Source: Acidobacteriota bacterium (GTDB lineage: Bacteria > Acidobacteriota > Blastocatellia > Pyrinomonadales > Pyrinomonadaceae). From it: DNA of 64,000 nucleotides. Position 1 is the stretch's first letter. Every line of letters starts with the position of its first letter. Position numbers and translations under genes: made by a program. This document shows, piece after piece, positions 2,739 to 7,313 of the stretch. The stretch is from NCBI GenBank assembly GCA_029557535.1, contig JAKQII010000013.1:1-64000 (forward strand), given 5' to 3'. Below the pieces are notes generated by a model. That model worked only from the letters and a program-made list of their open reading frames with translations, was not told the origin of the DNA and did not search any database.

Positions 2739-3293
2739 ATGAGATCTGACGTTTTCGCAAAACGCCGAGATGATGAAGTTGTTGTGCAGGAACTCGATGG
2801 CGAGTTCTTGGTTTACGATCTGAGAACGGACAAGGCATTTTGCCTGAACGATACCTCGTCGGTCGTGTGGAACGCGTGTGACGGCAAACGGGACCACGAA
2901 CAGATTCGTTCCGTTGTCAGTGCACAGCTTGGTTCGGAGATCGGTCAGGACGTCGTCTGGCTCGCGCTGCAGCAGCTGTCGAAAAACGGTCTGATCGACG
3001 GCGGGGACGTCGAGGCTCCCGTGGAGTTTGCCGGATTGTCGAGACGTCAGCTGATGAAACGGATCGGGCTTGCAACAGCCGTCGCGTTGCCGGTCGTCGC
3101 ATCGTTGGTTGCGCCGACCGCCGCGCACGCTTCGTCGTTGTGTATGACGGGCACTTCATGTTCATGCCCTGGCGGAACCCCGATGGGTTCGAGTTGTCCG
3201 AATACGACGTGTCGAAACTCCCCGAGCGTTCCCACCGGAAGCTGTCTATGCAGCCCCAATCCGCCGGGACCTGCGGGCCGGACTTGCGTGTAA
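2739..3293 (+). CDS. PqqD-domain protein with internal Tat-like signal and 8-Cys C-terminal peptide (paralog A)
   Basis: AAGGAGA at 2727-2733 precedes ATG 2739. PqqD-like EFLVYDLRTDKAFCLNDTSSVVWNACDGKRD; SRRQLMKRIG + hydrophobic stretch + APTAAHA/SS; tail with 8 Cys. Confidence 0.8.
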   Translation: MRSDVFAKRRDDEVVVQELDGEFLVYDLRTDKAFCLNDTSSVVWNACDGKRDHEQIRSVVSAQLGSEIGQDVVWLALQQLSKNGLIDGGDVEAPVEFAGLSRRQLMKRIGLATAVALPVVASLVAPTAAHASSLCMTGTSCSCPGGTPMGSSCPNTTCRNSPSVPTGSCLCSPNPPGPAGRTCV

Positions 3294-3371
3294 CCAATGC
3301 CTTGTTTTGATCTTCCGGCCGTTTCTTGGATCCGCAGTCACTTAGTGAGGTCACGTTTCGATTAGGCTCAA

Positions 3372-4607
3372 GTGTTTGATTTCGCGTTTAACCCCTTGAT
3401 CGACATTCACGATGAGGGCGGTGAGGCTCTTCATCTGGTTGCGCCGAAACCCGGCGCGGGTCTTCAGTCATACGAACTGAGAAGATCGGCAAATGCCGGT
3501 CTTTTTGATTTTTTCGAAAGCGTCGCGCGGACCGGAATGCTTGACGACGGGCTTCTTGATGACCTTGATCCGGACGAATTCGAGCTTCTCCGCAGTCACG
3601 GATTCATTCTTCGGGCAAACGCGCTTCCGGAACAGCCGCTTTTCGCGGCGTTGCTGACTGATGTCGATGAATTTGCGGACGACATTGCAGAGCCTGACCT
3701 GATCATCAACCCGACGTTCCGATTCATTAACGTTGAACCGGCGCATATGCGGTCGTGGATGCACGACCGGCGCCACTCCGGACGGCCGTCAGCCTGGATC
3801 ACCAAACCCGTTACCGGGATCGAGCTTGGTTATTGGCTGAGTCACCGGGAAGCCGCACTCGTCTCTCAATTCGTCGCCGGAGATAGTCCCCAAGTAAGCC
3901 TTGATCCGGCGCTGAAACGCCGGTTGCTTTCGGCCGGGATCCTCACGAGCGTCGCCCTGTTGGAGTCCGATGCTGCCGCAGCTTCCGAATGGATTTCCGT
4001 GGCGAAATCGAATTATGAGCTGAACGGATATGCCGTTCTGCGCGATCTTGTCCCGCGAGCGCAGTCTGAGGCGATGAAGAGATACTATCGAAATTATGTT
4101 GCCGACGGGTTCATGCCCTTCGATGACGCTCAGAGCGAGCGTTATTACCAGCACAATGAGCCGCTCGCGAGGACCTTTCACGGGAATTTCACGAAGCTGA
4201 TGAGCCTTGTCGTCGGAAGCGGCGTGATCCCGTCATACGTTTACGCCGGGTCATACATTGCCGGATCAGCGCTGACCCCGCATGTTGATCGGGCGCAATG
4301 CGAATTCAGCATCTCGATGCAGGTCGATTTCTGCCCCGACATCGATCGAAATCCGTCGCCTTGGGGATTGTTCCTGAAACAAGGGGCAACCGTCGATGCC
4401 GCGCACTGCGCCGATCGGCACGAGGATTATCCCGCTGACTCGCAAGAGCGGGATTCAAACCCCGTGGTCTATCTCTCGAACGGCGACGCCGTGATTTATA
4501 AAGGATGCGAGCTCGTGCATTACCGGTATCCGTTGGCAGACGGCTGCGCATCGACCTCGTTGTTCATGCATTACGTGCCGGTCGATTTCGGCGGCGATCT
4601 GGATTAG
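3372..4607 (+). CDS. 2OG-Fe(II) oxygenase-like protein with uncharacterised N-terminal half
   Basis: GTG start; C-terminal half has HxD (TPHVDRAQCEFSISMQVDFCPD) and distal His (GCELVHYRYPL) spacing typical of double-stranded beta-helix oxygenases. Confidence 0.6.
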   Translation: MFDFAFNPLIDIHDEGGEALHLVAPKPGAGLQSYELRRSANAGLFDFFESVARTGMLDDGLLDDLDPDEFELLRSHGFILRANALPEQPLFAALLTDVDEFADDIAEPDLIINPTFRFINVEPAHMRSWMHDRRHSGRPSAWITKPVTGIELGYWLSHREAALVSQFVAGDSPQVSLDPALKRRLLSAGILTSVALLESDAAAASEWISVAKSNYELNGYAVLRDLVPRAQSEAMKRYYRNYVADGFMPFDDAQSERYYQHNEPLARTFHGNFTKLMSLVVGSGVIPSYVYAGSYIAGSALTPHVDRAQCEFSISMQVDFCPDIDRNPSPWGLFLKQGATVDAAHCADRHEDYPADSQERDSNPVVYLSNGDAVIYKGCELVHYRYPLADGCASTSLFMHYVPVDFGGDLD

Positions 4608-5452
4608 TCGTTCTGCTTCTCTGCCATCACCGAATCGAGAAGGGAAACGATCGCGGGAGCGCACTCGACCGCTTCGCCGCGCGTCGAACGGACAGTGATC
4701 GCGGTACGTGCAACTTTCGTGAGGACGTCGACGGCGAATTCCGGCACGCGCCGGATCGGTATTGTGTTTCGGAGCAGTTCGATCACGCAATTTGCCGGAG
4801 ACAGGCGGCGCGGCCGCCAATTGCCGCCTGATTTGTATTTTGCGAACACGATCAACGCGACGGGAATGCCGTTCTCTCCTGAAGTGCCTCCGATCTCGTC
4901 GATCGATTTGTCAGTTTGTCGGAATTTTCCGGCGGGACGGATCGAAAGCGGTTTCGGACATGGATGTACGAGACCGTCGCCATCGAAAATCGCGTACTCG
5001 TCCGAATAGTATACTGCGCCCAACTTGACCAATTCCGCAGTAAGCGTGGTCTTTCCCTGGAGGCTCCGGGCCGGGATCACGATCGCCTTCCCATTCCATG
5101 CCACAACACCCGCGTGGACAAAGAGCCGATCGACGGCGTGCTCGGCAATATGTAATCGAACGTGCGTCAAGAGAAACTTCCACACCATGCTTCGCGCCGT
5201 CCTGAACAGAATCACCTTTCGGTTCAATACCAAAGTGTCCTTTCGTCCGACGTATCTCACGAGCGCGTATTCAAAGTCAGGGACGTGCTTATCATTCGAG
5301 AAAGCTTGATTCGGGAACGTTTCGGTGACAAACCGCAAAAGCTCACCGATCGCGTCTTCGTCGTTGGTCACGAACGAGATCCCGACTCCGAAAATGCTGA
5401 ATGCATGTCGGAATTCAAGCTGATCGATGGTCCTTTGGAGTCGGGGATGCAT
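4604..5452 (-). CDS. HPr-kinase-like P-loop protein (copy A)
   Basis: [63 protein letters not shown]; homologous to 6483-7313; start chosen at MHPRLQ (the ORF is open to 5512). Confidence 0.75.
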   Translation of the reverse strand: MHPRLQRTIDQLEFRHAFSIFGVGISFVTNDEDAIGELLRFVTETFPNQAFSNDKHVPDFEYALVRYVGRKDTLVLNRKVILFRTARSMVWKFLLTHVRLHIAEHAVDRLFVHAGVVAWNGKAIVIPARSLQGKTTLTAELVKLGAVYYSDEYAIFDGDGLVHPCPKPLSIRPAGKFRQTDKSIDEIGGTSGENGIPVALIVFAKYKSGGNWRPRRLSPANCVIELLRNTIPIRRVPEFAVDVLTKVARTAITVRSTRGEAVECAPAIVSLLDSVMAEKQND

Positions 5453-5505
5453 TATCGTGACTTGGGTGAACGTCGCCTTCGCGCGAGGACTCAGTTTTGA
5501 CCGTT

Positions 5506-5772
5506 TCACCAACGGACATCATATTTTACAAACGTTTCGCGCCACGTGCCTTCGCCGACCAGCGGCAACGATCCATCATAAGTGAGCGGCGTCTCCAACG
5601 AACAGGATTTCCTGTAAGTACGGCCGCTCGGCGAATATATCGTGAGGACGATCTTATCCTCCCTCGTGGCGGAGATCGCGCCTGATCTCCAGTCGAGCCT
5701 GCACCGTACCAAGACCCGGGCGCCTACAGGCAGGTCGCAAAGTCTCATGTTAGGGGAATGGGCTACCGACAT
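5506..5772 (-). CDS. Small hypothetical protein, start uncertain
   Basis: ORF ...MRLCDLPVGARVLVRCRLDWRSGAISATREDKIVLTIYSPSGRTYRKSCSLETPLTYDGSLPLVGEGTWRETFVKYDVRW; lies between two HPrK/PqqD cassettes. Confidence 0.5.
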   Translation of the reverse strand: MSVAHSPNMRLCDLPVGARVLVRCRLDWRSGAISATREDKIVLTIYSPSGRTYRKSCSLETPLTYDGSLPLVGEGTWRETFVKYDVRW

Positions 5773-5927
5773 TGCCTTGAGATTGATATCTTGAAGACCA
5801 CGTGTCAAGAGCACGAGGGCCGACGTGACCCGCCGACAATCGAAAGATTTGACATGATATTCGGCTGCATGGCATCCTTTTGAAGGTGATCGATGCCGAA
5901 TCCGCAGCAGAATCAGTATTTCCAAGA

Positions 5928-6476
5928 ATGAACATCACTCCACGAAGCAGATCCGAAGCGATCATTGTCCAGGAAGCCGGGAATGAACTCTTGGTCTATG
6001 ATCTGAACGAACACCGAGCCTATTGCTTGAACGAAGTCTCCGCCGCGGTTTGGAAGTCGTGCGACGGACGCCGCGACATCAAAGAAATCGCGAGGTCGGC
6101 AGGCAACGACTATGGAGCAACGCTCGACGAGGACTTGATCGTGCTGGCTCTCGATCAGCTAAGGCGCGCGGAATTGGTAGACGATGCGCCTAAACTGGCC
6201 GATCGGTTCCCGGCGGTCAGCCGGCGAGAGATAATCAGGCGCATCGGCAAGGCGTCATTGGTCGCGTTGCCGGTTCTCACTTCGCTCGTTGCGCCAACGG
6301 CAATTCACGCCAATTCGCTTTGCATGACCCTTGTGGGCGGGTGCACGTGCGGTCTTGGCGACAATCAACCGTCCGGTATGTTTTGCGTGCCGTCCGGTTT
6401 CGGGGCAATGGCTTGTGCCGACACCAACTGCAGGTGCCTCAGCATGGGGTTCGGCGCCGACGATTGTGTGCCGTAA
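5928..6476 (+). CDS. PqqD-domain protein with internal Tat-like signal and 8-Cys C-terminal peptide (paralog B)
   Basis: ELLVYDLNEHRAYCLNEVSAAVWKSCDGRRDIKEI aligns with paralog A; SRREIIRRIGKASLVALPVLTSLVAPTAIHA/NS; tail with 8 Cys. Confidence 0.8.
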   Translation: MNITPRSRSEAIIVQEAGNELLVYDLNEHRAYCLNEVSAAVWKSCDGRRDIKEIARSAGNDYGATLDEDLIVLALDQLRRAELVDDAPKLADRFPAVSRREIIRRIGKASLVALPVLTSLVAPTAIHANSLCMTLVGGCTCGLGDNQPSGMFCVPSGFGAMACADTNCRCLSMGFGADDCVP

Positions 6477-6482
6477 TTGCTT

Positions 6483-7313
6483 TCAGCGACCTGTGAGCTG
6501 CTCCAATAGTGCCTCCGCGGCTTCGGTCGCTTCGCCCCGTTTTCCTTTCAAAAAGACTGCACCGGCAACGGCCTTTCCGAGTACCTTGATCGCCCGTTCG
6601 GGAGACGCGCGTATTGGAACCGTGTTTGCGATCAGTGCCATCAGTCCGTCGCCCTTCGTGATTGCTCGCGGTCGAAAGTGGCTGCCCTGAACATATTCCG
6701 ACACCAGGACGGTTCCGACCGGCACCGGGTCGACGGCGACGGTCGCTCCGAGCGACTCCGCGGAGATTTCCACTTGGCGGTGGCCGTCCAATATTCCCCT
6801 CATCGACAAAGTCTTTGGGAACGGACAGGCCCGCCCGAGATTGTCAATGACCGCAAATTCGTCAGACAAGTACTCGGCTCCCCGCTTGACGAGTTCCGCC
6901 GTCAGGGTCGTTTTTCCGCTGTAGCTTTCGCCCGGAAGCAAGACCGCCCGACCGTTCCAAACCACCGCCCCCGAATGGACGAATATGAACTCCCGCGCGT
7001 TTTCGGCGACGGTAAGACGTGCGTGAGAACCAAGGTATGTCAGCGTTCTTTCAAGGTCGGCCCGGTCGATCAAGGTTTCGCCGTTCGAGTCGATCGAGTA
7101 ACCGTCTGTTCCCGACAGGATCGTGAAGCGGCGGTCGATCGCCGTTTCGACCACGATCTGGCGAGAACCCGGAAGCGACTCCGAAACCGCACGACCGATC
7201 CCTTCGCCTATATCGGCAGGTCCTGAAACCTCGACGACTATTCCGAATGCCTCGAATTTGAGTGATTGGAGATGAGCGGACATCCTTCGAAATTCGCAGA
7301 AATCAGGGTTCAT
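6483..7313 (-). CDS. HPr-kinase-like P-loop protein (copy B)
   Basis: [65 protein letters not shown]; canonical Walker A GESYSGKT; starts within the 3' end of lpxD. Confidence 0.78.

Follow-up and report, generated by a model that had tools for sequence, protein, structure and literature searches.

Candidate self-docking peptide precursors with twin-arginine signals and HprK-like kinases in Acidobacteriota

Relation to described systems

HprK-like kinases phosphorylate lasso peptide precursors of the paeninodin type, and a lasso nucleotidyltransferase adds hexoses onto phosphorylated pseudomycoidin (PMC8498205). Similarly, lpp clusters hold a RiPP (ribosomally synthesized and post-translationally modified peptide) recognition element (RRE), HprK, a nucleoside triphosphate (NTP) transferase, an SpI peptidase and an MsbA-like transporter; the kinase of these clusters phosphorylates LppA (PMC13381572). 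For prochlorosins, PMC10783134 describes a solitary promiscuous enzyme that serves many precursors. Here we analyse two neighboring gene cassettes at positions 2739-7313 of a 64,000 nt stretch of DNA, referred to as the window (contig JAKQII010000013.1, assembly GCA_029557535.1, an Acidobacteriota bacterium of the Pyrinomonadaceae). Each cassette pairs an HprK-like kinase gene with a putative precursor in which an RRE, a twin-arginine translocation (Tat) leader and a cysteine-rich core are fused. We consider it about 60% probable that this is a RiPP-like pathway in which RRE, leader and disulfide-rich core, all in one polypeptide, are modified by the kinase in the cytoplasm and exported through Tat. 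The fusion would thus represent RRE/HprK/nucleotidyltransferase peptide modification in a new arrangement, the modification itself being predicted by analogy. The system is conserved and real, and its fused architecture appears to be undescribed: no account of an RRE-Tat-core fusion was found in published work under open licence.

With the paeninodin and pseudomycoidin lasso clusters these cassettes have in common the RRE, HprK-like kinase and nucleotidyltransferase modules, and their RRE fold is nearest to lasso B1. In contrast, there is no lasso cyclase or B2 protease, the RRE is fused to leader and core, a Tat signal takes the place of an ABC exporter, and the presumably disulfide-rich tail mostly lacks a C-terminal Ser. 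The first-pass annotation had seen neither cyclase nor B2 nearby, and indeed no B2 protease (PF13471) or Asn-synthetase-like cyclase is found among the cassette genes, which rules out a lasso cluster; the sole PF13471 gene of the source genome is on contig C245. That contig (L229, 3235-3964, + strand) carries a discrete RRE (B1), the PF13471 B2 and the apparent start of an Asn-synthetase-like gene, and looks like a fragment of a separate lasso-like locus.

The lpp clusters of Bacillota are alike in joining RRE, HprK-like kinase and NTP transferase without a lasso cyclase, and their surroundings are frequently rich in glycosyltransferases, as here. In those clusters, however, the RRE is a separate protein, and the peptidase and transporter are SpI-like and MsbA-like, respectively; here RRE and precursor form one chain with a Tat signal. 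Neither an SpI-like peptidase nor an MsbA-like transporter was recognized among the recurrent neighbors, which were inspected by eye with no profile search for either, and the pair appears to be replaced by the Tat signal with its AxA site. In the NCBIfam HPr-rel-A system (TIGR04352 kinase, TIGR04353 PqqD family), a PqqD-family protein likewise has as its neighbor a kinase from this superfamily. The kinases described here reach only 49-63 bits against a curated cut-off of 200; TIGR04353 is matched weakly by 12/64 precursors (best E 3e-4) and by none of the window proteins.

Prochlorosins, served by the single ProcM, resemble our family in their conserved leader, hypervariable Cys-containing core and many copies per enzyme. 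The enzyme is another one here, the Cys number is even and no lanthionine synthetase was seen, so that disulfides are likelier than thioethers; lanthionine-type chemistry was set aside because a lanthipeptide synthetase went unrecognized among the recurrent neighbors and the even Cys count favors disulfides. Knottin or inhibitor cystine knot (ICK) peptides and Dickkopf-like peptides share a cystine-knot-like spacing with a subset of the tails, with weak matches in single members; in contrast to them, the tails here are bacterial, fused to RRE and Tat signal, and nearly uncharged.

RRE domain of the precursors

Precursor A (2739..3293, + strand) has 184 amino acids (aa), with the RRE/PqqD domain at aa ~15-86, the twin-arginine signal at aa ~100-131 and a tail of 8 Cys. 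Precursor B (P0005; 5928..6476, + strand; 182 aa) shows the same layout, with the domain at aa ~12-84, the signal at aa ~97-129 and again 8 Cys in the tail. Around these two genes we collected a family of 157 distinct precursors, 154, 155 or 64 of which entered individual tests.

Assignment of the N-terminus to the PqqD family, proposed from the sequence by the first-pass annotation, survived the profile search: PF05402 scores 25.8 bits in precursor A and 31.8 bits in precursor B, both over the gathering score of 23.4, and is matched by 64/64 family members scanned. The AlphaFold model of precursor B (64 sequences) has three strands (12-17, 20-25, 30-34) followed by three helices (36-44, 51-62, 68-80), a βββ-ααα order with pLDDT >90, then a helix at the twin-arginine signal and a low-confidence tail. 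In the literature an RRE is defined structurally by this arrangement of three strands and then three helices (PMC12710340). Consistent with it, Foldseek returned lasso peptide RREs as top matches for this model (TbiB1, 5v1u/5v1v, E ~2e-4, probability 1; FusB1, 6jx3), with the RREs of CteB, TruD and SuiB ranking next. As modelled, the N-terminal domain of the precursors is an RRE/PqqD fold, for which leader binding is predicted. The domain is acidic, with a mean net charge of -5.6 and negative values in 97%.

The source genome also encodes, on contig C292 (L231, 2751-3008, + strand), a stand-alone RRE of 85 aa that belongs to the same family and carries neither Tat signal nor tail.

Tat signals and cysteine-rich tails

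The two precursor signals read SRRQLMKRIG...PTAAHA/SS and SRREIIRRIG...PTAIHA/NS (the slash marks the predicted cut), with 8 Cys after each, in line with the Tat and 8-Cys reading of the first-pass annotation. Across the family the twin Arg is invariant (64/64), a Tat-like core is present in 140/155 members and an AxA-like site in 154/155; the genome encodes TatC. By their RR motif, hydrophobic segment and AxA, the precursors carry the sequence marks of Tat substrates, and from these we infer Tat export and cleavage. The hydrophobic segment contains P-x3-S/T-x3-P in 136/155 members (in the window, for example, at 3090-3120 and 6270-6300), which is possibly a modification or peptidase site.

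The tails are ~54 aa long with 16% Cys and nearly no charge (K 0.5%, R 1.6%, D 2.6%, E 1.1%). Their Cys count is even in 152/154 precursors, and the even counts span 4-22. An ICK-like spacing (C-x5-7-C-x4-8-CC-x2-5-C-x3-8-C) fits 31/155 tails, and weak matches to Toxin_12, Omega-toxin or Dickkopf_N occur in single members each. The tail of precursor B is of the type C-CxC-C-C-CRC-CVP, shared with loci L163, L105 and L112. Even Cys, length and low charge are marks expected of disulfide-bonded exported peptides, which these tails presumably are.

HprK-like kinases

Convergent to each precursor, as the first-pass annotation had it, lies a minus-strand gene of HPr-kinase type: kinase 1 (4604..5452), which faces precursor A and the oxygenase-like gene that follows it, and kinase 2 (6483..7313), which faces precursor B. 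Both match TIGR04352 (HprK-related kinase A; kinase 1 E 2.4e-17, 63 bits; kinase 2 E 3.6e-13, 49 bits) far under that family's cut-off, and kinase 2 also matches PF07475 weakly. The His, the P-loop GKT, SDE and an Arg are conserved in kinase 1, and H113, G133-K134, S150-D151 and an Arg are invariant across 43 kinases; the motifs align with those of 1ko7. The model of kinase 2 (pLDDT 92.5) is matched by Foldseek to PEPCK and HprK/P with probability 1.00. Since PEPCK and HprK/P share one fold, a match to both is expected. The proposed kinase identity is thus borne out by profile, fold and catalytic residues: going by model and alignment, these genes encode HPrK/PEPCK-fold kinases with intact catalytic motifs and predicted activity.

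Co-occurrence and locus context

A kinase gene lies within 2 kb of 68/157 precursors, and 63 of these pairs are co-directional; the convergent layout of the window is atypical among relatives. The usual arrangement is an operon, and its commonest order, found in 39 cases, is kinase, precursor, nucleotidyltransferase. The latter belongs to PF14907 in 16/16 members scanned, with KG, DxD and DxH conserved. Over 60 genomes from 47 genera, precursor and kinase occur together in 34 and are both missing in 24, with 1 + 1 discordant genomes (Fisher tests that ignore phylogeny), in line with the co-occurrence anticipated for this pairing. One discordant genome is only 71% complete (G033), and in the other (G015) the kinase gene holds a stop codon. 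The corresponding figures for precursor and nucleotidyltransferase are 34/1/4/21. Because nucleotidyltransferase matches are weak in G040 and none is present in the window cassettes, the kinase is the tighter partner of the precursor.

Polysaccharide genes (WecA-like, glycosyltransferase or UDP-GlcNAc-epimerase-like) adjoin 39/54 loci with kinase and nucleotidyltransferase and 0/52 loci with neither, and because of this split it seems that an ancestral cassette was kept vertically at one site and that precursors spread later. Many of the kinase and nucleotidyltransferase loci also adjoin tsaB-rimI. In the window, groups 1 and 2 glycosyltransferases are found at ~22000-47000, along with a PMT_2 protein beside adenylosuccinate synthetase.

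The source genome (G000) holds a third cassette on contig C183 (L080, 5162-7547, + strand) in the order precursor, kinase, nucleotidyltransferase, and this is its sole copy of the PF14907-type nucleotidyltransferase.

Distribution of the family

The precursor family is present in 51/98 relatives and in 27/297 genomes of a phylum sample, mostly of the same class. Named contigs come mainly from Acidobacteriota metagenome-assembled genomes (MAGs; Pyrinomonadaceae, Blastocatellia, Chloracidobacterium, Aridibacter), plus one Gemmatimonadetes MAG, and plasmids gave one weak match, in Gemmatirosa kalamazoonensis (31% identity). This points to a large family of putatively exported Cys-rich peptides in soil and water Acidobacteria, each with its own predicted docking domain and Tat signal. 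In two genomes, G029 and G040, the family has expanded to 35 or more precursors each, dispersed through the genome, with one true kinase apiece and a marginal second match in G040 (E 6e-7). Mean identity within these two sets is 0.43-0.48 in the RRE, 0.53-0.58 in the signal and 0.15-0.16 in the tail outside Cys. In the favored pathway a single kinase would act in trans on many different tails.

The 2OG oxygenase-like gene

The gene that follows precursor A in the same orientation, 79 bp further on (3372..4607, + strand; 411 aa), had been called 2-oxoglutarate (2OG)-Fe(II) oxygenase-like by the first-pass annotation. No family profile matches it directly and a PDB profile search gave nothing convincing; PF13532 is reached by its distant homologues only (E 4e-5). 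Membership in the 2OG-Fe(II) oxygenase superfamily is supported at the sequence level by these PF13532 matches and by the facial triad: H304xD306 is invariant, and every member whose sequence extends that far has the distal H (ELVHYR/EFTHWR). The protein has an extra N-terminal region. Close homologues were found among the relatives in G029, G040 and G051 only. Those of G040 (94 bp away) and G029 lie, as in the window, just downstream of a precursor on the same strand. The link with the peptide gene recurs in three genera, and a plausible role is that of an accessory hydroxylase, minor in the family. Since tails next to the oxygenase gene hold Pro-Gly-rich stretches, prolyl hydroxylation of the tails would be our guess.

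Two more distant 2OG oxygenases with another N-terminal region occur in precursor-free genomes (L222, 5663-7003, - strand; L223, 4655-6178, + strand), where that region is possibly another RRE-like fusion.

Proposed pathway and alternative explanations

In the pathway that we favor, the RRE domain would dock the HPrK-fold kinase in the cytoplasm, and the docked enzyme would phosphorylate a Ser/Thr of the same chain. In many species the PF14907 nucleotidyltransferase could then elaborate the phosphate, as in pseudomycoidin, and in cassette A hydroxylation of the tail by the 2OG oxygenase is a further possibility. Directed by its RR signal, the chain would pass through Tat and be cut at AxA by signal peptidase; the freed tail would fold with disulfides, leaving the RRE behind on the removed leader. 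The HPrK-like enzyme probably modifies the precursors. We infer that the precursor is its substrate, and likewise the site and chemistry of modification, and the product would be a secreted or cell-surface peptide.

Several observations weigh against this pathway. The precursors score at the cut-off of the Tat profiles or slightly under it, the majority of the scattered copies lack a kinase in their vicinity, and the co-occurrence statistics carry no correction for phylogeny. Neither window cassette holds a nucleotidyltransferase, and in G040 the matches to one are weak. Lasso kinases use a C-terminal Ser, which just 8/155 members possess; the specificity of the kinase must therefore differ from theirs, and the Ser/Thr of the conserved motif in the signal is a possible alternative phosphorylation site.

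The PqqD domain could instead act as a chaperone within the chain that proofreads the adjoining Tat signal and holds it back until the chain is ready, with kinase and nucleotidyltransferase switching this hold by modifying the conserved RRE or signal region and the tail receiving disulfides only. Separate redox enzyme maturation protein (REMP) chaperones such as DmsD and TorD do proofread the Tat signals of redox enzymes, and such a role would suit both the conservation of RRE and signal beside tails that share Cys only and the P-x3-S/T-x3-P motif, unusual in that place and perhaps the site that the kinase uses whatever the tail. RREs are known, however, for docking modifying enzymes rather than as Tat chaperones, and a switch has no obvious need of a nucleotidyltransferase, which makes this explanation unlikely, if still a serious one. 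The polysaccharide context raises another thought, that the main substrates of kinase and nucleotidyltransferase are glycans or lipid carriers of that locus, the precursor being an accessory or the acceptor protein. The 39/54 against 0/52 split speaks for it, but lpp RiPP clusters sit in glycosyltransferase-rich loci too, the kinase tracks the precursor across genomes, and the window cassettes lie ~15 kb from the polysaccharide genes; we regard it as improbable.

A borderline membrane helix (mean hydropathy of the hydrophobic segment 1.79) and winged-helix relatives in the Foldseek list (ToxR, probability 0.84) would also fit a ToxR-like regulator that spans the membrane by one helix, with a winged-helix domain binding DNA in the cytoplasm and a Cys-rich sensor in the periplasm. 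Its domain would have to be the acidic one whose top structural matches are RREs, which disfavors DNA binding, and an invariant RR together with AxA, as well as the hypervariability of the tails among 35 or more paralogues, are unlike a sensor, so we give it very little credit. That precursor and kinase are unlinked in function, as chance or hitch-hiking neighbors, would account for the scattered copies without an adjoining kinase; it is strongly disfavored, to the point of near dismissal, by the frequent co-directional proximity and the 58/60 concordant genomes.

Taken further, the RiPP-like pathway would make these proteins a new Acidobacteriota RiPP class, in which self-docking precursors are phosphorylated or phosphoglycosylated by one promiscuous kinase with or without the PF14907 transferase, and in some genomes at least 35 different Cys-rich mini-proteins leave through Tat; for this extended claim the odds fall a little short of even. 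If true, each substrate would carry its own recognition element, a separate RRE protein would be superfluous and any tail could be plugged in. It would also be an unusual case of small disulfide-rich peptides exported by Tat, and would open up a large, so far unexploited store of knottin-like scaffolds from bacteria. The cassettes would further offer a two-gene test bed for substrate choice by HPrK-fold kinases and PF14907 transferases, an open question in lasso and lpp pathways. The first-pass annotation had caught the PqqD family and the kinase pairing, and missed the PF14907 partner, the even Cys count, the knottin-like tails and the expansions to at least 35 copies.

Layout of the window cassettes

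Both precursor genes were annotated on the + strand with correct coordinates. AAGGAG precedes the ATG of precursor A, and 7 bp separate the stop codons of precursor B and kinase 2. The description of the cassettes as duplicated holds as paralogy and fails as recent duplication: precursors A and B are 44% identical over their aligned part and kinases 1 and 2 are 33% identical, which rules out a recent tandem copy and, judged by these identities, makes the two cassettes old paralogues.

Between the cassettes lies a small conserved protein gene (P0004; 5506..5925, - strand), of whose product the C-terminal ~85 aa are conserved. It was found in 42/98 relatives, and it is unlikely to be a component of the system since precursor-free genomes are among them. 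A gene of this type adjoins a precursor in the source genome and in G003, G019 and G051.

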